Shown here: positions 23,384 through 34,194 of the stretch, piece by piece
How the letters are laid out: each line of letters starts with the position of its first letter
How positions within the stretch are numbered: the first letter of the stretch is position 1
NCBI RefSeq assembly: GCF_003711805.1
Contig: NZ_QXCP01000004.1
Location: forward strand, 434,001 to 498,000
DNA length: 64,000 bases
Source of the DNA: Brachybacterium sp. EE-P12
GTDB taxonomy: Bacteria > Actinomycetota > Actinomycetes > Actinomycetales > Dermabacteraceae
Direction of reading: 5' to 3'
The notes under the pieces: model-generated
Told to the model about the DNA's origin: nothing
Seen by the model: only the letters and a program-made list of their open reading frames with translations
Database searches by the model: none
Program-made: the position numbers and the translations under genes

Positions 23384-24421
23384 TCAGCGCTCGGGAGCAG
23401 CGTCATCCTCGGCTCGAGCGGCGTCGGCCTTCGCGGGAGCGACGGGGCCGGTGCCGCTGCGGCGGCCGAGGCGCACTCCGAGCACGATCGCGACCGTCAG
23501 GACGAGGGCGCAGACGATCAGGAGCGTCCACGGCGCGGCGAAGCGGTGCGCCTCGAGCGACTGCGTGCTGCCGGGGGTCTCGTCGACCGCGAAGGAGCTG
23601 GTGTCCACCTCGATCGTGTTCCACAGCAGCGCCCGGGCATCGACCTGCACCGTGCGCTCGACGGTCGCGCCGGGCAGCACCTCCTGCAGCGTCGCATCGG
23701 TGCGCAGCGCGCCGATGCCGAGCGGTCCGGAGGCGGTGATCGCCTCCTGCGCATAGATCCGCGCGGACCCGGTGTTGGTCAGCGTGTAGGTGACGGTCGC
23801 GGTCGACGGCCCGAGCAGAGACCAGGTCGAGGGCAGGGAGACCTGCAGGTCCGAGACGTCGTGGGAGACCGTGAGGTCGCCGGGGACGCGCACGTCGACC
23901 CGGGTGGCGACCCGGTTGTCGACGGAGACGGTGTCTCCCTCGGTCGAGTAGGTGACCACCACGCCGCCGGAGAAGTCGCCGGGAGCGGCGTCGGCGGGGA
24001 CGGTCAGGGTGAACGGAACGGTCACCGACTCGCCGGCGGGGATGTCCACGGTGTCCTGCGGCAGGGAGACCCAGGCACCGATGCCGGTGTCCGGCTCCTC
24101 GGGCAGCGCCAGGCTCAGGTTCCCGTCGCTCGTGGTGACGGCGTCCTTGACGTCCAGGGAGAGCTGCAGGGAAGTGGCGTTGTGATTCGTGACGACGACC
24201 GAGTCCTCGATGCTCGCCCCGGGCTCGAGCACCCACGCGAAGGAGTCCCCGCGCTGCGCGTCCTCCGGCACCGGGCCCGGAGCGATCGAGAGGGTGACGT
24301 CCTCCGCGCGGGCCACGGGCAGGGCCGCGCAGATCAGGAGCGCGGAGAGGACGAGGAGACGGACGAGCAGCAGGAGCGCCCGGGCGGGGGCGGGCGACGC
24401 AGCGGGAGGGGCGGAGAGCAT
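23384..24421 (-). CDS. DUF916 / WxL-interacting-like membrane-anchored surface protein
   Basis: 345 aa. A long hydrophobic signal peptide (LLLLVRLLVLSALLICAALPVARA) is followed by two beta-rich domains. The first (GDSFAWVLEPGASIEDSVVVTNHN to DFSGGVVVTYSTEGD) is the DUF916 fold known from WxL-interacting proteins of Firmicutes; the second resembles the domain that follows it there. A C-terminal membrane helix (WTLLIVCALVLTVAIVLGVRLG) and a basic, then acidic tail end the protein. It lies 73 bp downstream of the HtaA-WxL-like gene with a strong hairpin between. Inferred role: membrane anchor or clamp for that protein. Confidence 0.75.
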   Translation of the reverse strand: MLSAPPAASPAPARALLLLVRLLVLSALLICAALPVARAEDVTLSIAPGPVPEDAQRGDSFAWVLEPGASIEDSVVVTNHNATSLQLSLDVKDAVTTSDGNLSLALPEEPDTGIGAWVSLPQDTVDIPAGESVTVPFTLTVPADAAPGDFSGGVVVTYSTEGDTVSVDNRVATRVDVRVPGDLTVSHDVSDLQVSLPSTWSLLGPSTATVTYTLTNTGSARIYAQEAITASGPLGIGALRTDATLQEVLPGATVERTVQVDARALLWNTIEVDTSSFAVDETPGSTQSLEAHRFAAPWTLLIVCALVLTVAIVLGVRLGRRSGTGPVAPAKADAARAEDDAAPER

Positions 24422-24450
24422 GGAGGACCTCGGGGATCGGACGGGACGGC

Positions 24451-24487
24451 GGCGGGTGCGCCCCCCGCTGAGGGGAGCGCACCCGCC
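24451..24487 (-). terminator. Hairpin between the HtaA-WxL-like gene and the DUF916 gene
   Basis: Perfect 11-bp stem GGCGGGTGCGC/GCGCACCCGCC with inner C/G pairing, only 8 bp after the end of the upstream gene. It probably lowers transcription of the DUF916 gene relative to the surface protein gene. Confidence 0.7.
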
Positions 24488-24494
24488 GCGAGTG

Positions 24495-25973
24495 TCACCG
24501 GAGGGAGGTGATGGTGAGGGTGGAGGTGTAGGCGCCGGGTGCCGCGTCAGCGGGGGCCTGGAGCTGCAGGTCGGCGGTGGCGTCCACCGAACCTGCCGGG
24601 TGGCCCTCCGGGGCGGAGACCAGGGTCTGCGCCGAGGCGAGGCCCGGCTCGTTCACCTTGACCGCGCCACCGGCCTTTGCCTCGGTGATGGTGCCGGTGG
24701 CCGACGGGGTCCAGCCCAGCGCCTCGGCGCCGAAGCTGCCGGCGGTGCCGGTGAAGTCCGTCGCCTGCGCCGAGACGGTGAAGGCGTTGTCGGTCGTGTG
24801 GGTGTCCTTCACCGTGATCGACGGCAGGGTGCCGGAGGCGGCGAAGCCGGCGGCGTTCTGCTCAGCGGTGCCGAGGTTCGTGGTGGAGTCCGAGATGGTC
24901 ACCGAGAACTCGGGGTCTTCGGGCTCGGTCGGATCCGTCGGGTCGGTGGGGTCCGTGGGGTCCGTCGGGTCGGTGGGGTCCGTGGGATCGGTGGAGCCCT
25001 CGCCCTCGGGGACCTCGACGCCGACCTCGATGTCACCCTCCTCCGTGCCCTCGGGCTCGGTCGGCTCGGGGTCCTCGACGGGCTGGGCGTCGAAGGCCAC
25101 GACGATGTCCGCCGCGGTCTTCTTCGCATCGACCTGGCCGCCGGAGGTGTACCAGTAGGCGGACTGTCCGGTCAGGAGGTTGTAGTCGACCCAGGACTGC
25201 GGGAAGGATCCCCAGCCCTCCTTGTCGCGGTTCTGCGGGTTGAAGGTGCCGCTCTCGTCGCCTTCGACCTCGACGCCCTCGTAGTCCGGGGTGATGGTGA
25301 CGCCGTCCGCGGTGAGGTCCACGCCGGAGAAGGTCGCCAGCTCGATCTCGGTATCCGGCAGCTCCACCCACTTCGAGGGGTCGTACATGTCGGCGCCGTA
25401 GCCGGAGGCGGTCCCGGTCAGGGTCCCTTCGCCGTTCTCGACGGTCAGGACCGGGTCGCTGATCGTCCAGTAGGTCATGCCGCCGTAGTAGACGATCGTG
25501 AAGTCGCCGTCGAAGGAGAGGGTCCCCGAATCGGAGGCCTCGTCGACCGAGCCGGTGCCGCCGGTGAAGTTCACCTGGTTGCCGGAGGTGGATCCGGCTG
25601 CGGTGGTCGCGTTGGTACCGGCGGAGGTCTGGCACTTGGTCGACCAGGTGGGCTGGACCTGCTTGCCGTCGGCGTCGGGCTTGGTGATGGTGACGTCGCC
25701 GTCGGTCGTCTTGTAGTTCGCATCGGCGAACGCGGATCCCCACACGGAGGACATGCCGTTGTCGCCGGCAGCGCCGGCGACCAGGAAGTTGCAGCCGCCG
25801 AAGAAGGCGCCGCCGCCGGACTCGTCGTTCACCCGCCAGGAGAAGGAGGCGTCGTCGACGTCGACAGGAGCGGCATGGGCGGCCGTGGCGCCGAGCGCGA
25901 GGCCGGAGCCTGCGAGCAGGGTCGCCCCGGCGATGCCCACGACGGACCGTCGCAGGGTGGAGAAGGTGGTCAT
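24495..25973 (-). CDS. Secreted HtaA-domain protein with WxL-like C-terminal domain
   Basis: 492 aa. Signal peptide with cleavage near AAHAAPVD. Residues about 42-300 form one HtaA-like domain: FSWRVNDESGGGAFFGGCNFLVAG, a second Cys in STKC, VYYGGMTYWTISDPVLTVENGEG, YGADMYDPSKWV and WGSFPQSWVDYNLLTGQS. A spacer of seven P-T-D repeats follows, then a domain of about 140 residues ending YTSTLTITSLR that resembles WxL surface domains but has no Trp in the second motif and reads FTVSAQ at the first. No membrane anchor or sortase motif is present, so retention would depend on a partner. RBS AAAGG precedes the ATG. HtaA family call is firm; the WxL relation is my reading of the pattern. Confidence 0.8.
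   Translation of the reverse strand: MTTFSTLRRSVVGIAGATLLAGSGLALGATAAHAAPVDVDDASFSWRVNDESGGGAFFGGCNFLVAGAAGDNGMSSVWGSAFADANYKTTDGDVTITKPDADGKQVQPTWSTKCQTSAGTNATTAAGSTSGNQVNFTGGTGSVDEASDSGTLSFDGDFTIVYYGGMTYWTISDPVLTVENGEGTLTGTASGYGADMYDPSKWVELPDTEIELATFSGVDLTADGVTITPDYEGVEVEGDESGTFNPQNRDKEGWGSFPQSWVDYNLLTGQSAYWYTSGGQVDAKKTAADIVVAFDAQPVEDPEPTEPEGTEEGDIEVGVEVPEGEGSTDPTDPTDPTDPTDPTDPTDPTEPEDPEFSVTISDSTTNLGTAEQNAAGFAASGTLPSITVKDTHTTDNAFTVSAQATDFTGTAGSFGAEALGWTPSATGTITEAKAGGAVKVNEPGLASAQTLVSAPEGHPAGSVDATADLQLQAPADAAPGAYTSTLTITSLR
24931..24993 (-). repeat. Seven 9-bp tandem repeats encoding P-T-D units
   Basis: Each 9-bp unit encodes Thr-Asp-Pro. Forms the spacer between the HtaA-like and WxL-like domains. 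Unit gain or loss keeps the frame. Confidence 0.9.
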
Positions 25974-26069
25974 GATGGCCTTTCATCGGGTGGAAGGGGT
26001 GCCGGGAACCCGGCGGGAGCACAGCTCTGCGCACGAGATGCGCCCCGGCTGCGGCGGGGGTCGGGGAGA

Positions 26070-29000
26070 TCAGGGGGAGGCGGTCAGGAAGGGGATCCTC
26101 GGACGGGGGAGGACCAGCCAGCCCTTCTTCAGCGAGAGGACGAGCACCGTCGTGACGAGACCGAGGAACCCGGTGGTCCCGAGCACCCGCAGCGGGGTGC
26201 CGAACGCCGCGTCGAGGGCCAGCGGGATGAGAGTCCCTCCGCTCCATGCCGGAGAACTCAGCGCGTAGTCGGCGGCGTAGTCCTCCGCGGCGAGGGCGAC
26301 CGGTGACACCGACGTGCTCACCGGGGCCGTCGTCGGCAGGGCGCTCGGGAGCACCCCGCCTGATCCTGAGCCGAGGCCGGAGCCCGAGCCGAGTCCGGAG
26401 CCCGAGCCGAGTCCTCCCTCGGGCTGGACCGCACCGCCGCCGCCCGGCAGCACAGCACCACCGCCGCCGGGCGGGACGGCACCGCCCTCGCCCGAGGCGG
26501 ATGTGCCGGGGCTGGTCGAGCTGGCGGGCGCCTGCGGGGAGGCGGCGTCCCAGCTCACCGTCAGCGGCAGCGGGGGCTTCGCACGATCACGCAGACCGCC
26601 GGAGCTGTACCAGTAGGACGACTGGCCGGTGGCGACTTGGAAGTCCACGAAGTCCTGCGGGAAGGAACCCCAGTAGTCAGCGTCCTTCACCTGCGGGTTC
26701 ATGCCACCGCTGGCGTCGATGCTCACCCCGCGGTAGTCGGGGGTCACGCTGAATCCGTTCTCGGTGAGCTCGGCGTTGCGGAAGTTCGCGAGGGTCACGG
26801 TCCGGGTCTCGAGCTTCACCCACTTCGAGGTGTCGAACATGTCCGCGCCGTAGCCGCCGACGGTCGCCTTCAGCGTGCCGGTGCCGTCGGCGTTCACCGT
26901 CAGGACTGGGTCCTTCGCCCACCAGTAGGTCATCCCGCCGTAGAACACGACGGAGAAGGAGCCCTTCCAGCTCACGCTCGCGGTGGTCCCCGCGGCCCCG
27001 GGCTCCCCGTCGAGGGTGCCGGTGCCGCCCTCCATCACGATCTCGGTCCCGGTGCCGACGGTCGAGTTCGTGCTGACGGTCGCGCCGGAGGCATCCTTGC
27101 AGCGGTCCTTCCAGGACGGAGCCGCACCGTCCCGCTCCAGGCGGACGTTCCCGGCGGAGGTCTTGTAGACCTTCTTGCCCTCGGCGTCGGACCACACGTG
27201 GCTCGAGCCCATGTCCGGGACGGAGCCGGCGACGAGGAAGTTGCAGCCGCCGAAGAACGCCGCGGAGGTCGTCTCCTCGTTGATGCCCCAGCGCAGCTGC
27301 GCATTCGAGAGGGTGCGGTCGCCGTCCTGGGCGCGCGACGCGTCGGTGCCGCTGCCGCCGCCTGTCGCGGTCCCGCCGTTTCCGCTGCCGCTGCCGCTTC
27401 CGCTGCCGTCGCCGTTGCTGGTGCCGCTGTCGTCGCCGTCGTCCTTGCCGCCCCCGCCGCCGGGCGCAGGATTCTCCACGGGATCCGAGGCGTCCCAGCT
27501 GATGACGATGGGGGCCGCGGTCTTCTTCGCGTCGACCTGGCCGCCGGAGGTGTACCAGTCGGCGGACTGTCCGGTGAGGAGGTTGTAGTCGACCCAGGAC
27601 TGCGGGAAGGAGCCCCAGCCGTCCTTGGTGCGGTTCTGCGGGTTGAAGGTGCCGCTGTCGTCGCCCTCGACCTCGACGCCCTCGTAGTCGGGGACGATCG
27701 TCATTCCCTTGTCGGTGACCTCTGCTCCGGAGAAGGTCGCGAGCTCGATCTTCTTCTCGGGGAGCGTCACCCACTTGGAGGGGTCGTACATGTCGGCGCC
27801 GTAGCCGGAGGCGGTGCCGGTGAGGGTGCCTTCGCCGTTCTCGACGGTGAGGACCGGGTCGCTGATGGTCCAGTAGGTCATGCCGCCGTAGTAGACGATC
27901 GTGAAGTCGCCGTCCCAGGAGGCGCTCGCGGTGTCGGTGGCCTCGTCGAAGGTGAACTCCTCACCGGTGAAGTTCACCTGGTTCCCGCTCGTGGAGCCGA
28001 CAGCGGTGCTCACGGCGGTGCCCGAGGAATCCTGGCACTTGGTCGACCAGGTGGGCTTGGTCTGCTTGCCGTCGGCGTCGGGCTTGGTAATGGTGACGTC
28101 GCCGTCGGCGGTCTTGTAGTTCGCCTCTGCGAATTCGGAGTCCCACACGGAGGACCTGCCGTTGTCGCCGGCGGCACCGGCGACCAGGAAGTTGCAGCCG
28201 CCGAAGAAGGCGCCGCCGCCGGACTCGTCGTTCACCCGCCAGGACAGAGAGGATGCAGACTCGTCGTCGGGAGTCGGTGCCTCCTCAGAGGGCTGGGTCT
28301 CCTCGGGGATCTCAACCCCCAGCTCGATCGCGCCTTCTTCCTTCTTCTGCTTCAGCTCCTCTGCCGAGGCGCGCGTCGCTGCCCAGGGGGAGATCGCGGA
28401 GGCGGCGCCGAGGGTGAGCAGCGCCAGGCCGAGGGCAGCACCCTGCCGGGCGCGTCGGCCCGCCGCGCCGCCACGCACGTCGGTGCCCGGACCGGGCCAC
28501 ACTCGCTCCCCGGGAGCGGCGGCCGCGCGCTCCGCCTCGCGCTCGGCGGCCTCCGCCGCGGCGGCGGCGCGCTTGGCAGCCCGGCGCCTGGCGATCAGGC
28601 GGACCAGGCTCGTGATCACCGCGACCAGCAGCACCAGCAGCACCAGGCCCACCAGGATCAGCACCACGATCATGACGATGTCCCAAGCACCCAGGGACCC
28701 GGCCTCGTCGACCTGCGCGGTGGCGCCCGCGGGAGCTCCGGCGGTGACCGTGAAGGATGCCCGCGCGGTCTGCTCCGAGGCGGCGCCGGTGAGGGTGATG
28801 ACGTGCGTGCCGGGGCGGAGGTCCGCGGGGATCGGCAGCGAGCCGGCGATCTCGCCCGAGGCGCCGGACTGGTAGGGGCCGGCAGCGCTCGTGCCGTTGT
28901 CGAGGGTGCCCACCACCTGCTCGCCGGGGAGGAACCCGCGCGCCGTGAAGCTCAGTGCACCTCCTTGCGAGGCATCCTTGGAGACCAGCCCCACCTGGGC

Positions 29001-29864
29001 CTCGCCGAGCTCAGCCGTCTCGGCCGATGCGTCAGCGGCGTCCTCGCCGGCGGCCGCGGCGGCGGGATCGTCGGCCTCCTCGGAGCCCTCAGATCCCTCG
29101 GAGCCCTCGGCGGCGGGTGCGGGGGCGGCCTGCGCGGAGTTCGACTGCTGCGGGGCAGCACCCTCGGCGGAGGCGTCACCCTCGGAGCCCGCCGCGTCCG
29201 CGGAAGCCGCCTCGTCCCCGGAGGCTGCGTCGTCCCCGGAGGTCCCCTCGCCCTCGGCGGCAGGAGCCTCGCCGACGAACTCGATCGGGGTGAAGGTCTC
29301 GTTGTTCGCGTTCTTCACGCCGTGCGCACCGATCGTGATGATGCCGCACTGCACCTCGAGGCAGTTCACCCGGGTGACGTTGCCGTCGCGGTCCATGCTG
29401 TCGAACTCCGGGCCGGGGATGATCATCTGCGCGTTCCAGGTGCCGTCGGCCGCGAGCTCGCCGCCATTGGCCGCCCCGGCCGTGGAGGAGCCGGGGAAGG
29501 TGACGAAGCGCTGGTAGCCCTGGTTGTCCTTCGTCTCCGAGTCCGGGACGTACTGGTAGTCGGTGCCGGTGGCGCCGCCCTCGGAGGGACGCCATCCGTC
29601 GGAGATCGTCCCGAACAGCACGTAGATCCCGCCGAACCCGCCCTGGACGGACTGGAAGCCGCTGCCCGAGAGGGACACGGTGGTCGGCGCGGTCGTGGAG
29701 GCCTTCGCGCCCCCGAGCTCCGAGGAGACGCTCACGCGGGCAGCGGCCTGCGCAGGCTGGGCCGCGTGCACCGCGGTGAGCAGCAGCGCGGCGAGCACTG
29801 CGCCGAGCGCGAGGAGCCGTCGCTTCAGCGGATTCGCGGCGGCGGACGGGCGGGGCGTGGTCAT
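26070..29864 (-). CDS. Large multi-domain HtaA-type surface protein, putative heme receptor
   Basis: 1264 aa. Order: signal peptide (LLALGAVLAALLLTAVHAAQPAQA); a beta domain to about residue 200 with a Cys pair (NCLEVQC); an acidic Ala/Glu/Ser linker; a second beta domain; a membrane helix near 391-425 (WDIVMIVVLILVGLVLLVLLV) and an Arg/Ala-rich stretch; a second signal-like hydrophobic segment near 470-500 ending ATRASAEE; two HtaA-like domains (about 540-790 and 855-1105); Gly/Ser and Pro/Gly repeats; and a C-terminal membrane helix with a basic tail. Its ATG overlaps the hmuV stop. HtaA proteins of corynebacteria take heme from hemoglobin and pass it to HmuT; that role is inferred here. 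The chain looks like two surface proteins joined. Confidence 0.85.
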   Translation of the reverse strand: MTTPRPSAAANPLKRRLLALGAVLAALLLTAVHAAQPAQAAARVSVSSELGGAKASTTAPTTVSLSGSGFQSVQGGFGGIYVLFGTISDGWRPSEGGATGTDYQYVPDSETKDNQGYQRFVTFPGSSTAGAANGGELAADGTWNAQMIIPGPEFDSMDRDGNVTRVNCLEVQCGIITIGAHGVKNANNETFTPIEFVGEAPAAEGEGTSGDDAASGDEAASADAAGSEGDASAEGAAPQQSNSAQAAPAPAAEGSEGSEGSEEADDPAAAAAGEDAADASAETAELGEAQVGLVSKDASQGGALSFTARGFLPGEQVVGTLDNGTSAAGPYQSGASGEIAGSLPIPADLRPGTHVITLTGAASEQTARASFTVTAGAPAGATAQVDEAGSLGAWDIVMIVVLILVGLVLLVLLVAVITSLVRLIARRRAAKRAAAAAEAAEREAERAAAAPGERVWPGPGTDVRGGAAGRRARQGAALGLALLTLGAASAISPWAATRASAEELKQKKEEGAIELGVEIPEETQPSEEAPTPDDESASSLSWRVNDESGGGAFFGGCNFLVAGAAGDNGRSSVWDSEFAEANYKTADGDVTITKPDADGKQTKPTWSTKCQDSSGTAVSTAVGSTSGNQVNFTGEEFTFDEATDTASASWDGDFTIVYYGGMTYWTISDPVLTVENGEGTLTGTASGYGADMYDPSKWVTLPEKKIELATFSGAEVTDKGMTIVPDYEGVEVEGDDSGTFNPQNRTKDGWGSFPQSWVDYNLLTGQSADWYTSGGQVDAKKTAAPIVISWDASDPVENPAPGGGGGKDDGDDSGTSNGDGSGSGSGSGNGGTATGGGSGTDASRAQDGDRTLSNAQLRWGINEETTSAAFFGGCNFLVAGSVPDMGSSHVWSDAEGKKVYKTSAGNVRLERDGAAPSWKDRCKDASGATVSTNSTVGTGTEIVMEGGTGTLDGEPGAAGTTASVSWKGSFSVVFYGGMTYWWAKDPVLTVNADGTGTLKATVGGYGADMFDTSKWVKLETRTVTLANFRNAELTENGFSVTPDYRGVSIDASGGMNPQVKDADYWGSFPQDFVDFQVATGQSSYWYSSGGLRDRAKPPLPLTVSWDAASPQAPASSTSPGTSASGEGGAVPPGGGGAVLPGGGGAVQPEGGLGSGSGLGSGSGLGSGSGGVLPSALPTTAPVSTSVSPVALAAEDYAADYALSSPAWSGGTLIPLALDAAFGTPLRVLGTTGFLGLVTTVLVLSLKKGWLVLPRPRIPFLTASP
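26368..26415 (-). repeat. 18-bp tandem repeats encoding GLGSGS units near the HtaA C-terminus
   Basis: Units begin at 26368, 26386 and (partial) 26404. They encode a flexible Gly/Ser linker just before the C-terminal membrane helix; a related Gly/Pro repeat (GGAVxPGG) adjoins it. Confidence 0.85.
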
Positions 29865-30751
29865 GCGGGCAGCTCCATCGGGATCTCGAGCGGGGCGGGG
29901 GCGTCGGCGTCCGGCCGACGACGCACGGGGACGATCAGCAGCTCCCCGCCCTCCGGAGCGGTGAGCACGGTGACGGGATGCTGGTACACCTCGGAGAGAA
30001 GCTCGGCGGTCAGCACCTCGGCGGGGGAGCCGACGGCGCGCACGCGGCCGTCCTCCAACAGCACGATGCGGTCCGCATAGGCGGCGGCGAGCGAGAGGTC
30101 GTGCACGATCACCATCACGGTCGCGCCGGCGCGGGCGCGCGCCCGGGCGGCGGCGATCACATGCTCCTGGTGGCGGATGTCCAGGGCGGCGGTCGGCTCG
30201 TCCAGCAGCAGGATCTCGGTCTCCTGCGCGAGCAGGCGGGCGAAGGCGACGCGCGAGCGCTCGCCGCCGGAGAGGCTCGGCACCTGGCGTGCGGCGAGAT
30301 GGGTGACCTCGCCGGCCGCGAGCGCGGCGGCGATCACCTCGTCGTCACGCTCCTCCTCCGGGGTGCCGACCCAGGGCGCACGGCCCATCTCGACGGCGTC
30401 ACGAGCCGTGAAGGAGAAGGCCAGGCGCGAGTCCTGCATCTGCACGGCGCGACGCCGGGACAGCTCCTTCGGGCGCAGCGCGGAGACGTCCGCGAGCTCG
30501 CGGGACGCCGACCCGCCGGCCGCGGGGGAGCCGGCGATGATCCGCACGGTGCCCGCACGGGGAGCGATGTCCCCGGCGAGCACCCCGAACAGGGTCGACT
30601 TGCCGGCGCCGTTGGGGCCGACGAGCACGGTGACCTCACCGCGGCGCAGGTCCAGATCGACCTCGGTGAGGATCGGCGTGCCGCCCAGGTGCACGGTGAC
30701 CCCGCGCGCCTCGAGCGTCACCTCGCCGGGGGAGAGGGGAGCCGTGCTCAT
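29861..30751 (-). CDS. hmuV: Hemin ABC transporter ATP-binding protein HmuV
   Basis: 296-aa ATPase of the iron-siderophore/heme type. Walker A GPNGAGKST near residue 40, Q-loop VQMQDSRLAF, signature LSGGERSRVAFARLLAQ, Walker B ILLLDEPTAALD and the switch His in VIVHDLSLAAAYAD. Pairs with the permease HmuU. The start overlaps the hmuU stop and the stop overlaps the htaA start, each by ATGA, so all are translated together. Confidence 0.93.
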   Translation of the reverse strand: MSTAPLSPGEVTLEARGVTVHLGGTPILTEVDLDLRRGEVTVLVGPNGAGKSTLFGVLAGDIAPRAGTVRIIAGSPAAGGSASRELADVSALRPKELSRRRAVQMQDSRLAFSFTARDAVEMGRAPWVGTPEEERDDEVIAAALAAGEVTHLAARQVPSLSGGERSRVAFARLLAQETEILLLDEPTAALDIRHQEHVIAAARARARAGATVMVIVHDLSLAAAYADRIVLLEDGRVRAVGSPAEVLTAELLSEVYQHPVTVLTAPEGGELLIVPVRRRPDADAPAPLEIPMELPA

Positions 30752-31929
30752 GACCAGCCTCCCGCCCCGCGCCGGGTGCGACGGATGAGGTAGAAGAAGA
30801 ACGGGCCGCCGACGAGCGCCGTGAGCAGGCCGATGGGCAGGTCCGCATAGGGCACGGCGGTGCGGGCCACGGTGTCGGCGACCGCGAGCAGCAGGGCGCC
30901 GCCCAGCATCGAGGCGGGCAGCAGCACCCGGTGGCCGGGGCCCACCATCATGCGGATGAGGTGCGGGACCACGAGCCCGACGAAGGAGATGATCCCCGCG
31001 AAGGCGACGGCGGCCGAGGTCAGCAGCGCCACGAGCACCACGACCGACAGGCGCAGCCGCTCCACGTCGACACCGAGGTGGCGCGCGGGCTTCTCGCCGA
31101 GGGCGAGCAGGTCGAGGCTGCGGGCGCTCAGCAGCGAGGCCGCGAGGCACACCAGCACCACGGGGGTCACGATCCACACGTGGTCCCAGCGGCTGCCGTT
31201 GAGGCTGCCGAGCTGCCAGAAGACGATCTCCTCGCGCGCGCTCGAATCGCCCAGGAAGGTCATCAGCGCGATCACGGCGCCGCCGACGGCGTTGACCGCG
31301 ATGCCGGTGAGGACCAGGGTCACCACCTCGGTGCGTCCGTCCTGCCGGGCGGTCGTGTACACGACGGCGGTCGCGACGAGACCGCCGACGAAGGCGCCCG
31401 CCACCATCGTCCACTCGCCGAGGAAGGTCAGGCCGAAGACGATGACGATGCACGCCGCGGCCGCCGCGCCGGAGGAGACGCCGACGATCCCGGGCTCGGC
31501 CAGGGGATTGCCGAAGACGCCCTGCATGAGCGCCCCGCCGCAGGCCAGGGCCGCCCCGACGAGCAGCGCCATGAGCACGCGCGGCAGCCGCACCGTCACG
31601 AGCGCGGCGTCGGCCATCTGGGTGGCGCGGTCCGGGGCGGCTGCACCGGTGAGCGCGCGGCGCAGGCCCGCGACCACCTCCGCGGGCGAGATCGAGTACT
31701 GGCCGGTGCCCACGGAGACCAGCGCGGCGAGCACCAGGCCGAGGACGAGCGCGGCCAGCAGCCAGGGGACCCGGCGCAGGCGGACGTCCATCACGGGGGC
31801 CTCGTGCCCGGCGGCGGCAGGGGCCGGTGCTGCCTGCTCGGGGGACTCGTGGACGGCGACCGTGCCCGCCGGGTCCGCCTGCGGGGCGGGAGAGGTGCCG
31901 GTCAGCCGCACCGGCGCGACGGCGCTCAT
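30748..31929 (-). CDS. hmuU: Hemin ABC transporter permease HmuU (FecCD family)
   Basis: 393-aa integral membrane permease. After a Pro/Ala-rich N-terminus, about nine or ten helices follow, with the FecCD hallmarks LPRVLMALLVGAALACGGALMQGVFGNPLAEPGIVGVSSGA, GIAVNAVGGAVIALM, GIISFVGLVVPHLIRM and LPIGLLTALVGGPFFFYLI. It would carry heme or iron chelate through the membrane with HmuV. ATGA overlap with hmuT upstream. Confidence 0.93.
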   Translation of the reverse strand: MSAVAPVRLTGTSPAPQADPAGTVAVHESPEQAAPAPAAAGHEAPVMDVRLRRVPWLLAALVLGLVLAALVSVGTGQYSISPAEVVAGLRRALTGAAAPDRATQMADAALVTVRLPRVLMALLVGAALACGGALMQGVFGNPLAEPGIVGVSSGAAAAACIVIVFGLTFLGEWTMVAGAFVGGLVATAVVYTTARQDGRTEVVTLVLTGIAVNAVGGAVIALMTFLGDSSAREEIVFWQLGSLNGSRWDHVWIVTPVVLVCLAASLLSARSLDLLALGEKPARHLGVDVERLRLSVVVLVALLTSAAVAFAGIISFVGLVVPHLIRMMVGPGHRVLLPASMLGGALLLAVADTVARTAVPYADLPIGLLTALVGGPFFFYLIRRTRRGAGGWS

Positions 31930-33083
31930 GCTGCCTGCCCGCCGCTCTGCGCCGCCGCGGCGTTCGCGGTCTCCGGCGCGTAGACGGCCACGGCGAGCGC
32001 TTCGAGGGCGGCGGCGGTGGCCGGGCCGAAGCTCATGATCTCGGTGTCCGCCATGTCGACGACCCGTCGCGTCTGACCGGCCGGGGTCAGCGCGATGGCG
32101 GGCAGCGACTCGAGCATCCCGTCGATCCCGCCCATCGAGGCCAGGCCCTTGGTCATCATGAGCAGCAGATCGGGGGAGGCCTCGAGGAAGGCCTCGTCGG
32201 TCATCGGCTTCATCCCGTCCCAGCCGATCTCGGCGGCGACGTCGATCCCGCCGATCGAGCTGATCAGGTCGTCGGCGCCGGAGCCGGTGCCGAAGATGTA
32301 GTAGGTCCCGGACTGGCCGCGGGCGTAGAAGAACATCATCCGCAGCTTCTTCGCCTCATCGCTCGGGGCGATCTCCGCGATCCTGGCGAGGGACTCCTGG
32401 ATCTCCCGGTCGGTGCGCTCGGCGAGGACCGATCCCTCCTCGGGCAGGCCCACCGCGTCGGCGACCTGCTGGATGAGATCGGGGGTCCCGTCGAGCGAAC
32501 GGTGGGAGTCCACGACGACCACCGGGATGCCGCTCTCGCGCATCTGGAGGACCACGTCCCAGGGGCCCAGGGAGGAGTCGGTGATGATCAGTGTGGGGGC
32601 GAGCTCGAGGATCGACTCCCCGTTCAGCTCGTGGCCGTTCTGGGTGACCAGCGGCAGGTCCTGGATCTCCGCGTACTGGGAGGAGGTGTCGCGGCCCACG
32701 ATGTTCGCGCCCAGCCCGAGGTCGAAGACGATCCGGGAGGTCGAGCCGTAGAGGTCGATCGCGAGGATGCGCGAGACGTCCTCGATCGTGACCTCGGTGC
32801 CCTGGCTGTCGGTGAGCGTGACGGGGAGGGAGGGCGTGGGCTCCTCGGCGACGGGGCGGATGCCCACCTCGGCCGGCAGCGCTGTCGAGGGGCCCTCGTA
32901 GGCGAGCGGGTCCTCGAGGAAGTCGGCGTCCTCGAGGGTGCTGCCGAGCTCGGACTCCGAGCCCGAGGAGCTCGGCAGCAGCGAGCACGCGGACAGCGTG
33001 GAGGTCAGTCCGAGGGCGGCGGCGAGAGCGAGGGGCAGGCGCGGCAGCTCGCGGCGGCTCAAGGGGGTCGGGACGGCAGGCAC
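31926..33083 (-). CDS. hmuT: Heme-binding lipoprotein HmuT
   Basis: 385-aa solute-binding protein of the TroA/BtuF-like heme group. The signal peptide ends in the lipobox LSAC. The two lobes carry VSRILAIDLYGSTSRIVFDLGLG, NGHELNGESILELAPTLIITD and IFGTGSGADDLISSIGG; the His in NGHELN sits where family members often have a heme ligand. I chose GTG at 33083 because GGAGAG lies just upstream and the signal peptide then has normal length; a GTG at 33155 would add 24 residues. First gene of the heme run, downstream of a DtxR-like box. Confidence 0.9.
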   Translation of the reverse strand: MPAVPTPLSRRELPRLPLALAAALGLTSTLSACSLLPSSSGSESELGSTLEDADFLEDPLAYEGPSTALPAEVGIRPVAEEPTPSLPVTLTDSQGTEVTIEDVSRILAIDLYGSTSRIVFDLGLGANIVGRDTSSQYAEIQDLPLVTQNGHELNGESILELAPTLIITDSSLGPWDVVLQMRESGIPVVVVDSHRSLDGTPDLIQQVADAVGLPEEGSVLAERTDREIQESLARIAEIAPSDEAKKLRMMFFYARGQSGTYYIFGTGSGADDLISSIGGIDVAAEIGWDGMKPMTDEAFLEASPDLLLMMTKGLASMGGIDGMLESLPAIALTPAGQTRRVVDMADTEIMSFGPATAAALEALAVAVYAPETANAAAAQSGGQAA

Positions 33084-33188
33084 AGCTCTCCAGGACGAAG
33101 TGAAGGAGGGTGGGCGGGAACGCCCTAGGGGATGCGATGGGGTGCGATAGCGCACTTCTTAACGCAATGAAACTGTTGCATAATGCAT

Positions 33189-33207
33189 TGAGGCTAGGCA
33201 AGCCTAA
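33189..33207. promoter_or_regulatory. DtxR/IdeR-type iron box between hmuT and hmuO
   Basis: Read on the minus strand, TTAGGCTTGCCTAGCCTCA agrees at about 15 of 19 positions with the DtxR consensus TTAGGTTAGCCTAACCTAA. It lies 106 bp upstream of the hmuT start. Iron-dependent repression of the divergent heme genes is expected from family knowledge. Confidence 0.8.
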
Positions 33208-33351
33208 GTCCTACCGCGGTACGGTGTCGATCGTCACATGTCAGGAAACGAATGGGTGACGATGCAGGTCGCGAGCTGGAAAGGGTCGCGTTTGGTGCCG
33301 GCGTCAGATCGGTGGCGAGCGGCGAGGGGTTCGCTTCGGGGCGGGCGGGGC

Positions 33352-33380
33352 TTGCCGGTGCCCTTCCGTCGGGGCATAGT
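33352..33380 (+). promoter_or_regulatory. Candidate hmuO promoter
   Basis: TTGCCG (33352-33357) and CATAGT (33375-33380) with a 17-bp spacer, pointing towards the heme oxygenase gene. The start would be near 33387, giving an untranslated leader of about 100 nt. Confidence 0.5.
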
Positions 33381-33396
33381 TCTCCCACGAGTTCAT

Positions 33397-33411
33397 CTGA
33401 CACAGTGTCAG
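33397..33411. promoter_or_regulatory. Operator-like perfect palindrome in the hmuO leader
   Basis: CTGACACAGTGTCAG: 7-bp perfect arms around a single A, about 10 to 24 bp past the predicted transcription start. The position suits a repressor site. Other than these elements the 33084-33489 region has no gene I can support; a longer in-frame N-terminus for hmuO is possible there but has no motif support. Confidence 0.55.
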
Positions 33412-33489
33412 GAAAACTCGGATCCGCCCGGTCGGGAAGCCCGGACCAGCGGCGGCGACCACCCGCCCGACGAGCACGAGGAGCGTCCC

Positions 33490-34194
33490 ATGACCACTGC
33501 CACCACGAGTCCGCAGCATCGTCCCGACACCGGAGCCGCGGGCGCCGAGCGCCCGTCGGGCGCGGCGGGGTCGGCGGCGGGGAGCGCGCCGTTCTCCACC
33601 GTGCTGCGCGAGGCGACGCGCGAGGAGCACACCGCAGCGGAGACCCGGGGGTTCATCACCCGGCTCATGGGCGGCGAGCTGGAGGAGGGGGACTACTGGC
33701 GCCTGCTGGCCCAGTACCTGCCCGTGTACGAGGCGCTCGAGCAGTCGATCGCCGCGGCCGCCGAGGTCGATCCCCTCGCCGCCGCCTTCCACGACGCACG
33801 CCTCGCACGCGTCGCGGCCATACGGTGCGACCTGGCCGCGCGCTTCGGGAAGGACGCCGAGGTCGATCCGCCGCTCCCCGTCACCGAGCGCTATGCGCGC
33901 CGCATCCGCGAGGCGACGGTGCCGCAGCTGCTGGCCCACCACTACCTGCGCTATCTCGGGGACCTCTCGGGCGGTCAGGCCATCGGCGCGCTCGTCGCTC
34001 GCCACTACCAGGTGCCGGGCGGGCAGCTGGCCATGTGGGACTTCAGCGCCATCGACAAGCCCAAGCGCGTGAAGGACGAGTACCGCGCCCGGCTCGACGA
34101 GATCACCGATCCTGAGATCAGGGACGAGTTCCTCGCGGAGACGAAGCGCGGCTACGAGCTGGCCGGGGAGCTCTTCGCCGCGCTCGACCGCTGA
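33490..34194 (+). CDS. hmuO: Heme oxygenase HmuO
   Basis: 234-aa biliverdin-producing heme oxygenase that opens heme and releases iron and CO in the cytoplasm. The proximal His lies in LREATREEHTAAE; the distal helix motif YLRYLGDLSGGQAIG is intact; QYLPVYEALEQ is also conserved. GAGGAG lies 6 to 11 nt upstream of the ATG. Divergent from the heme uptake operon with the shared iron box, so imported heme would be degraded by this enzyme. The stop is 10 bp from the convergent DUF488 gene. Confidence 0.95.
   Translation: MTTATTSPQHRPDTGAAGAERPSGAAGSAAGSAPFSTVLREATREEHTAAETRGFITRLMGGELEEGDYWRLLAQYLPVYEALEQSIAAAAEVDPLAAAFHDARLARVAAIRCDLAARFGKDAEVDPPLPVTERYARRIREATVPQLLAHHYLRYLGDLSGGQAIGALVARHYQVPGGQLAMWDFSAIDKPKRVKDEYRARLDEITDPEIRDEFLAETKRGYELAGELFAALDR

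Follow-up and report, generated by a model that had tools for sequence, protein, structure and literature searches.

Genes of the operon and relatives of its last two products

The stretch of DNA analyzed here, a 64,000-nucleotide region of the Brachybacterium sp. EE-P12 genome (hereafter the window), carries a minus-strand operon whose genes, read 5′ to 3′, encode HmuT, HmuU, HmuV, a 1264-amino-acid HtaA-type protein (P0003), a secreted protein with HtaA and WxL-like domains (P0002) and a DUF916 (WxLIP) membrane protein (P0001). We favor, with moderate confidence, the view that the operon serves heme acquisition and that an actinobacterial WxL-like/WxLIP pair keeps its outer receptor on the cell surface. 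The first four genes are coupled by three ATGA overlaps, at the HmuT/HmuU, HmuU/HmuV and HmuV/HtaA junctions, and the P0002 and P0001 genes follow the preceding gene after 96 and 73 bases, respectively. An earlier note on this DNA had described such an ATGA-coupled run followed by two genes in the same direction. Both the coordinates and the junctions were borne out, and the observation made in that note is confirmed, while its interpretation is partly supported. The HmuTUV importer set is complete in this one operon, with a binding protein, a FecCD permease and a heme ATPase. The FecCD, ABC_tran and Peripla_BP_2 matches pass their Pfam cut-offs, as does that of the divergently transcribed heme oxygenase (Table 1).

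P0001 comprises an N-terminal hydrophobic helix, a beta ectodomain and a C-terminal transmembrane helix (residues 298-322, with the helix taken from the structural model). Its membership in the DUF916/WxLIP family, as the earlier note had claimed, is supported by sequence and structure comparisons alike. The protein scores 40.3 bits with the Pfam family WxLIP_PGBD (PF06030; cut-off 27.3), and of the 38 sequences in its alignment, P0001 included, 37 match this family at E ≤ 0.01. A profile of this set finds EfmWxLIP1 when compared with the PDB (E 9.8e-5). When an AlphaFold2 (AF2) model of P0001 (predicted local distance difference test [pLDDT] 88.8) is submitted to Foldseek, ranks 1 through 3 are taken by solved E. 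faecium WxLIP chains (1.1e-12 to 4e-12; next match 9.5e-9), and one of the matched entries is titled as bound to a long WxL. The fold match covers 259 columns of WxLIP, with a TM-score of 0.49 on the query. By eye, the motif NQIDKxxxYFDLK is absent both from P0001 and from the consensus of the aligned P0001-type set.

P0002 carries an HtaA domain of the two-cysteine type, and HtaA CR domains (8smu, 6jsc, 6jsa) top its Foldseek matches; a search with the whole protein does not resolve the WxL-like part separately. The earlier claim that the P0002 C-terminus resembles WxL holds for a divergent relative that is recognized by profiles, and fails for a full member of the family. Indeed, WxL gives no match at E ≤ 1 when the whole protein is compared with Pfam. 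A six-frame search of the whole genome with PF13731 (Pfam cut-off 25 bits) yields one sub-threshold match, which falls on the P0002 C-terminus (24516-25037; 13.3 bits, E 0.12). Pfam gives low scores to actinobacterial WxL partners: among 29 aligned WxL-like members, PF13731 is the commonest Pfam match, found for 16 at E ≤ 1 (best 3.3e-5), and 13 have no match at this level. In a broader WxL-like set (A1, n=15), PF13731 matches five.

Profile-profile comparison indicates that the region of residues 350-492 is related to WxL. Against 13 Enterococcus/Melissococcus plasmid WxL proteins, the broad set A1 reaches 89% (E 2.3e-6) and full heme-type proteins reach 65.5%. In the alignment of A1 with WxL, D-x-R, the first motif position, F and the terminal P..Y are co-linear. 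Many relatives keep a tryptophan at the first WxL motif, and the second tryptophan is replaced in the aligned rows. The arginine of the Asp-x-Arg that precedes the first motif is nearly invariant in relatives, and P0002 has D-T-H there. We call the domain WxL-like rather than WxL because the second tryptophan is replaced in relatives and the first is a phenylalanine in the window. Like a WxL domain, it occupies a C-terminal position and its gene lies beside a DUF916 gene.

Table 1. Positions of genes, domains and sites in the window
Feature	Position	Strand	Basis
hmuT, substrate-binding lipoprotein	31926..33155	-	Peripla_BP_2, E 3.8e-31 (Pfam); LSAC lipobox by eye
hmuU, permease	30748..31929	-	FecCD, E 2e-94 (Pfam); ATGA with hmuT
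hmuV, ATPase	29861..30751 (start ATG 30751, stop 29861)	-	NCBIfam PRK13548 heme ABC ATPase, 277.3 bits, cut-off 261
P0003, membrane HtaA-type protein, 1264 amino acids	26070..29864	-	HtaA by six-frame PF04213 match
P0003 strand motif GAIELGVEIPE (residues 511-521)	28302..28334	-	Position-specific scoring matrix 18.1; null maximum 6.9 of 149
P0002, secreted HtaA/WxL-like protein, 492 amino acids	24495..25973	-	Pfam HtaA; WxL-like by profile
P0002 HtaA (CR) domain, two-cysteine type	25083..25859	-	PF04213, 32.6 bits, cut-off 24
P0002 strand 311-321 and motif GDIEVGVEVPE (residues 313-323)	25005..25043	-	AF2; before DPT-repeat linker
P0002 WxL-like domain, residues 350-492	24498..24926	-	Profile comparison
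P0001, WxLIP/DUF916 membrane protein, 345 amino acids	23384..24421	-	Pfam PF06030, E 3.7e-10
Heme oxygenase gene, divergent to hmuT	33238..34194	+	Pfam Heme_oxygenase, E 4.3e-37
DtxR/IdeR-like iron box TTAGGCTTGCCTAGCCT	33191..33207	-	hmuT/heme oxygenase intergenic region
18-bp perfect G+C hairpin between P0002 and P0001 genes	24449..24489	-	-47 kcal/mol, z -4.5

The remaining receptor, P0003, consists of an N-terminal region that we name P3N with a transmembrane segment, a second hydrophobic segment, two HtaA repeats and a C-terminal transmembrane helix. The earlier description of a large HtaA protein is correct as to type, with PF04213 scoring 27.8 bits in a six-frame search (cut-off 24); a whole-protein Pfam scan gave no HtaA match. 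It is not correct as to a single unit, given that P0003 fuses what in Occultella are two distinct genes (429 and 424 amino acids). A sequencing or frameshift artefact was considered and rejected, given that the P3N-HtaA fusion is also present in B. halotolerans L069 and in the Dermabacteraceae loci L052 and L057. One Bifidobacteriaceae bin (L098) likewise has the fusion, and the genes are separate elsewhere. After the C-terminal helix, membrane HtaA proteins of 13 of 33 WxL loci carry a [KR]GWLVLP-type tail (26070-26160 in the window), which could possibly contact HmuUV. This tail was dropped as a further link to WxL, being too patchy (13/33 WxL loci, 0/20 others).

Association of the WxL-like and DUF916 proteins

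Among 58 genomes, including that of the window, the same nine hold both a WxL-like and a DUF916 protein, and neither was found alone. The order was surveyed in 297 genomes, of which 68 match the WxL-like profile and 53 match PF06030 (E ≤ 1e-5). A WxL-like domain is present in 52 of these 53 genomes (12.1 expected); 16 genomes have a WxL-like domain and no PF06030, and one has the reverse. For at least 75 of the 88 PF06030 places, a WxL-like place is listed no more than 3 kb away, a lower bound because the WxL-like scan listed only its best places, and in all 75 the WxL-like gene is upstream on the same strand. The co-occurring pair spans eight family codes. Chance as the source of the WxL likeness was rejected on these genome counts together with the profile-profile relation.

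A scan of named genomes with HtaA patterns provided 67 loci, drawn from the best 80 of 150 relatives, among them Dermabacteraceae, Pseudoclavibacter, Cellulomonas, Arthrobacter, Occultella, Tessaracoccus, Labedella, Streptomyces and Bifidobacteriaceae. Forty-two of these loci hold 43 proteins with a WxL-like domain. A DUF916 gene lies next to 38 of the 43, on the same strand and no more than 281 bases downstream, three times as overlapping open frames. Four of the five proteins that have no DUF916 neighbor end less than 700 bases from the end of the stretch. By comparison, DUF916 was found in none of the 25 fetched loci that lack a WxL-like domain. The adjacency is therefore conserved in many genera (38/43 versus 0/25).

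Of the 42 loci that encode a WxL-like protein, 34 show all three of hmuT, hmuU and hmuV; contig ends truncate six of the remaining eight, and the two uncut ones are L058 and L076. This association of WxL-like/WxLIP pairs with heme uptake in actinobacteria is real and conserved. A limited search of open-licence PMC papers, preprints not included, yielded no description of it. Among these papers we found none that treats HtaA together with WxL, and the single one listed for WxL domains, heme and actinomycetes concerns Lactiplantibacillus.

The best evidence that the WxL-like part serves as an anchor is that other wall anchors replace it on the same kind of protein. We inspected 22 HtaA tails, 21 of which are from loci without a WxL-like domain. 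LPxTG ends occur on HtaA proteins of such loci (L068, L073, L118), LAxTG-like ends were recognized by eye on five others (L081, L086, L087, L093, L109), and a Pfam search of eight tails revealed SLH on the L094 protein (E 1.3e-27) and CWB2 on that of L099 (E 1.6e-47). Other tails have Ig-like repeats, or nothing (L102). A Brevibacterium HtaA with LPxTG is among the loci. From the earlier proposal that the DUF916 protein holds the HtaA-WxL-like protein at the surface, it is the anchoring role that gains support from this exchange.

Several results count against this assignment and association. The P0002 C-terminal domain scores only 14.2 bits with WxL (cut-off 25), FTV and ITS stand at its WxL motif positions with both namesake tryptophans gone, and the heme-type domain alone compares weakly with the 13 WxL proteins (25%, E 7.7e-4). 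No 9i25 chain is among the 50 Foldseek matches listed for P0002, and P0001 has no Pfam match to DUF3324. No DUF916 accompanies the L058 WxL-like protein despite 9.7 kb of flank. In addition, HtaA is present at the loci by construction, because they were fetched by HtaA patterns, and seven of the 25 WxL-free loci come from stretches shorter than 12.3 kb and may be cut.

WxL-like/DUF916 pairs also occur with other neighbors. A second pair in the same genome (G000:C11:70353-79741; L047 8354-17742) has a small, 219-amino-acid WxL-like protein and is followed by three large proteins that have GH43-type, Laminin_G and Ig-like domains; it represents, in an actinobacterium, a WxL cluster of the carbohydrate type. 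On plasmids of Cellulosimicrobium protaetiae and Clavibacter phaseoli (L141, L142), DUF916 is annotated, its small WxL-like neighbor is called hypothetical, and LamG or GH43 genes lie nearby. Elsewhere (L041 10719-13187), the WxL-like domain is carried by a protein that by eye is metallophosphatase-like, with DUF916 next to it.

A strand common to P0002 and P0003

A short strand precedes the linker to the WxL-like domain of P0002. It is ordered in the AF2 monomer (pLDDT about 90) and flanked by disordered stretches, and a loose pattern finds an alternating V/I strand before the WxL-like domain in 43 of 44 other members. The corresponding P0003 motif sits after the internal hydrophobic segment and before the first HtaA repeat. 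With a strict pattern, the membrane HtaA shows the strand at its mature N-terminus in 27 of the 33 scored WxL loci and in 0 of 20 others. Ten WxL loci and five loci without WxL were left unscored because no P3N gene adjoins the HtaA gene on the stretch.

A position-specific scoring matrix (PSSM) was trained on WxL-like proteins only (48 distinct 9-mers from 56 of 78 proteins; the 22 without the full pattern were excluded). The same 27 membrane HtaA proteins score 12.7-23.0, and the other six WxL loci score ≤0.2, these being Pseudoclavibacter, Gulosibacter and [Zimmermannella] (L053-L056, L059) and Streptomyces L066. Control scores are ≤2.4 for loci without WxL (n=20) and ≤6.9 for 149 N-termini of other secreted operon proteins. 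The first, loose pattern matches 6.5% of segments and also one of 20 loci without WxL, inside a signal peptide. A chance origin of the motif was rejected: 10 of 2493 internal 62-residue segments reach the PSSM threshold, versus 0 of the 149 secreted N-termini.

Firmicute csc clusters (PMC1534035, PMC10599100, PMC9772566) comprise CscA, a DUF916 protein, CscB/C, which are WxL proteins, and CscD, a small LPxTG protein. Small LPxTG proteins beside actinobacterial WxL/DUF916 genes score 12.5-15.5 with the PSSM in four of seven cases and 5.3-7.5 in the others; these seven were picked partly by eye (L048, L049), and one LPxTG-like match away from DUF916 was excluded. These proteins give the strand motif some independent support. 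Three enterococcal CscD peptides were tried and are not recognized by the actinobacterial PSSM. We also compared the small LPxTG-type peptides of 11 Enterococcus/Melissococcus clusters, some of them close relatives and some with a variant or no LPxTG motif, with the N-terminus of the WxL protein of the same cluster. In four clusters, none of 1000 shuffles reaches the observed likeness; in three more, with the same strand, 32, 60 and 122 do so; and in the last four, where the best match lies elsewhere, the numbers are 7, 382, 453 and 568. Several enterococcal CscD-type peptides (L140 13436-13768, L143 9423-9758, L145-L152) have a [ST][ND]G.[IV].F-like strand that resembles the WxL N-termini of their own clusters.

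Other observations caution against linking the strand to WxL. At a PSSM threshold of 16.2, preset from the training scores, the count is 22 of 33 rather than 27 (0/20 and 0/149 among controls), and none of the seven CscD-like proteins reaches this value. Among the ten unscored WxL loci, the strand is present by eye in L065, L082 and L084 and absent in Streptomyces L072 and L079. On a tree of HmuU, one change is seen in the strand motif against four in WxL, and of three independent pairs on this tree, one agrees and two do not differ. Because the motif changes once, shared ancestry can explain its association with WxL. The link is not phylogenetically independent, and therefore we keep it as a hypothesis.

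Proposed tether, probable ligand and rival explanations

Under the proposed mechanism, the secreted P0002, which shows no anchor of its own, would have its WxL-like domain bound by the P0001 ectodomain, perhaps by the wall too. By analogy with the solved E. faecium pair, WxLIP would bind the WxL-like domain, and we consider surface tethering of P0002 by P0001 to be likely. The tether would put the outer HtaA domain of P0002 beside P0003 and HmuT, so that ligand would pass from P0002 to P0003, HmuT, HmuUV and finally heme oxygenase, in an order that we infer. The common strand may join P0002 and P0003 through beta-strand pairing with the WxL/WxLIP complex, although docking of P0003 in this manner is a tentative idea to which we give rather less than even weight. 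The earlier note did not mention this strand, which makes its proposal more specific. Hassan et al. (PMC10599100) predict that a WxLIP strand inserts into WxL beside the WxL N-terminus.

A broader and more doubtful proposal is that the strand before WxL domains is a transferable docking strand that clips one WxL/WxLIP complex either to the wall or to the importer. It would stand in WxL proteins, on small sortase-anchored CscD peptides and on the membrane heme receptor. If true, the role of CscD would be explained, and WxL, WxLIP and CscD would form a monoderm counterpart of donor-strand assembly, here serving as a wall-to-membrane heme wire. Siezen et al. (PMC1534035) could not usefully align the CscD peptides and suggested that they help in anchoring through as yet unknown interactions. 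The common strand bears on the question, raised there in 2006, of how WxL proteins, WxLIP and CscD hold together, and it is the part of this system that could exceed a variant of known ones.

The operon resembles csc clusters in that a DUF916 membrane protein is encoded beside a protein with a C-terminal WxL-type domain, on the same strand and with small gaps, and a small LPxTG peptide is present in some actinobacterial clusters as well. It differs in phylum, in the loss of the WxL tryptophans in the window, in having no DUF3324 match and in its cargo, which is a heme-type domain in a transporter operon. Moreover, no small WxL or small LPxTG gene (CscB or CscD) was seen in the operon, which has DUF916 and one large WxL-like protein. 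WxL proteins are described as coming almost entirely from Lactobacillales and Bacillales (PMC10599100) or to more than 91% from Firmicutes (PMC9772566), and as tied to adhesion or sugar use. The present data reveal a widespread actinobacterial WxL branch, tied here to heme uptake.

CR-fold HtaA domains with HmuTUV, and an HtaA held by a C-terminal helix, are shared with the corynebacterial HtaA/HtaB/ChtA system, whose proteins are presumed to be seated in the membrane by C-terminal helices (PMC12494546). Unlike that system, the window has a two-cysteine CR branch that lacks S[FLY]RxY and a second, secreted HtaA protein with WxL-like/WxLIP. The arrangement of an outer wall receptor, a membrane receptor and an ABC importer is also that of sortase-anchored heme receptors such as the LPxTG HtaA of Brevibacterium and the Isd-type NEAT receptors, which are anchored by sortase. 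The tether proposed here would instead be non-covalent and has no sortase motif, and so would represent a route, independent of sortase, for positioning a heme receptor in a Gram-positive wall. NEAT domains have a fold other than that of HtaA (PMC12494546).

The least probable of the explanations we weighed is that the P0002 C-terminus is a generic Ig-like stalk, that DUF916 has an unrelated job and that their adjacency is inherited operon history. The sub-threshold WxL score in the window and relatives with other anchors or none are in line with such a stalk, which we regard as very unlikely in view of the 52 of 53 genomes, the eight family codes, the 75 of 75 oriented close pairs, the profile relation to true WxL and the joint absence in 25 loci; some pairs also have other cargo, such as the metallophosphatase-like protein or GH43 neighbors. 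Donor-strand assembly is improbable, though less so. Here WxL-like domains would be pilin-like beta sandwiches short of a strand, WxLIP would chaperone them from the membrane, and strands of the WxL N-terminus, the membrane HtaA and LPxTG peptides could substitute for one another as donors, with HtaA-WxL proteins chaining up from a root on the membrane HtaA. After WxLIP, the P0001 model matches the biofilm protein RbmA (9.5e-9) and the fimbrial chaperone entries CFA/I (3.6e-8) and Csu (9.9e-7), but unrelated two-Ig proteins (transglutaminases, Vps26) appear at like E-values in the same list. WxL-like members weakly match DUF4402 (10/29 at E ≤ 1, best 5.1e-4) and SCPU (1/29), and P0002 has Foldseek matches to EcpA, AfaE/DraE and the type 1 rod (E 5e-3 to 0.23), which are weak and not placed on a P0002 region. 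The alternating strand common to P0002 and the membrane HtaA fits exchange of donor strands, whereas in P0002 this strand is predicted to be already ordered in its own monomer model. No such polymer is known to us.

The gene context is that of heme, and the ligand is probably heme or a related tetrapyrrole. What speaks against heme is the motif S[FLY]RxY, which we took as the search pattern for the axial tyrosine: it occurs in 0 of 158 HtaA domains of this branch, which leaves either a different ligand chemistry or a ligand other than heme. Position 57 is tyrosine in only 20 of 30 aligned domains and phenylalanine in the window. In crystal structures of HtaA, the axial ligand is a helix 1 tyrosine with a His or Tyr helper (PMC12494546). 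The lack of this tyrosine is the reason to consider a siderophore, a corrinoid or coproporphyrin instead, and the permease does score best with BtuC models, below their cut-offs. Such a ligand nevertheless seems quite unlikely given the adjacent heme oxygenase, an HmuV that scores above the heme-ATPase cut-off, the HtaA CR fold, and Tyr163, Tyr168 and Tyr273, which are present in 30 of 30 domains. In a weak alignment with 6jsa, a histidine of that structure lines up with Tyr163. Each of the two cysteines of the branch is found in 29 of the 30. At one heme locus (L042 9578-11257), the WxL-like protein has a canonical-looking HtaA start (ESFRRYV) and, by eye, a P3N-like stretch, and these replace the two-cysteine HtaA.

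A sigma-70 promoter scan returned no sites (0.1 expected) and a terminator scan two (1.5 expected). The iron box upstream of hmuT is the sole match at ≤3 mismatches in 64 kb to TWAGGTTAGSCTAACCT, a DtxR/IdeR-like consensus; 0.01 matches are expected, with the pattern cut to 17 bases after the site had been seen. The operon is probably iron-regulated. B. halotolerans has no room for the hairpin between the last two genes, with its WxL-like and DUF916 open frames overlapping by 1 base. In the window, this hairpin may set the relative dosage of the two genes.

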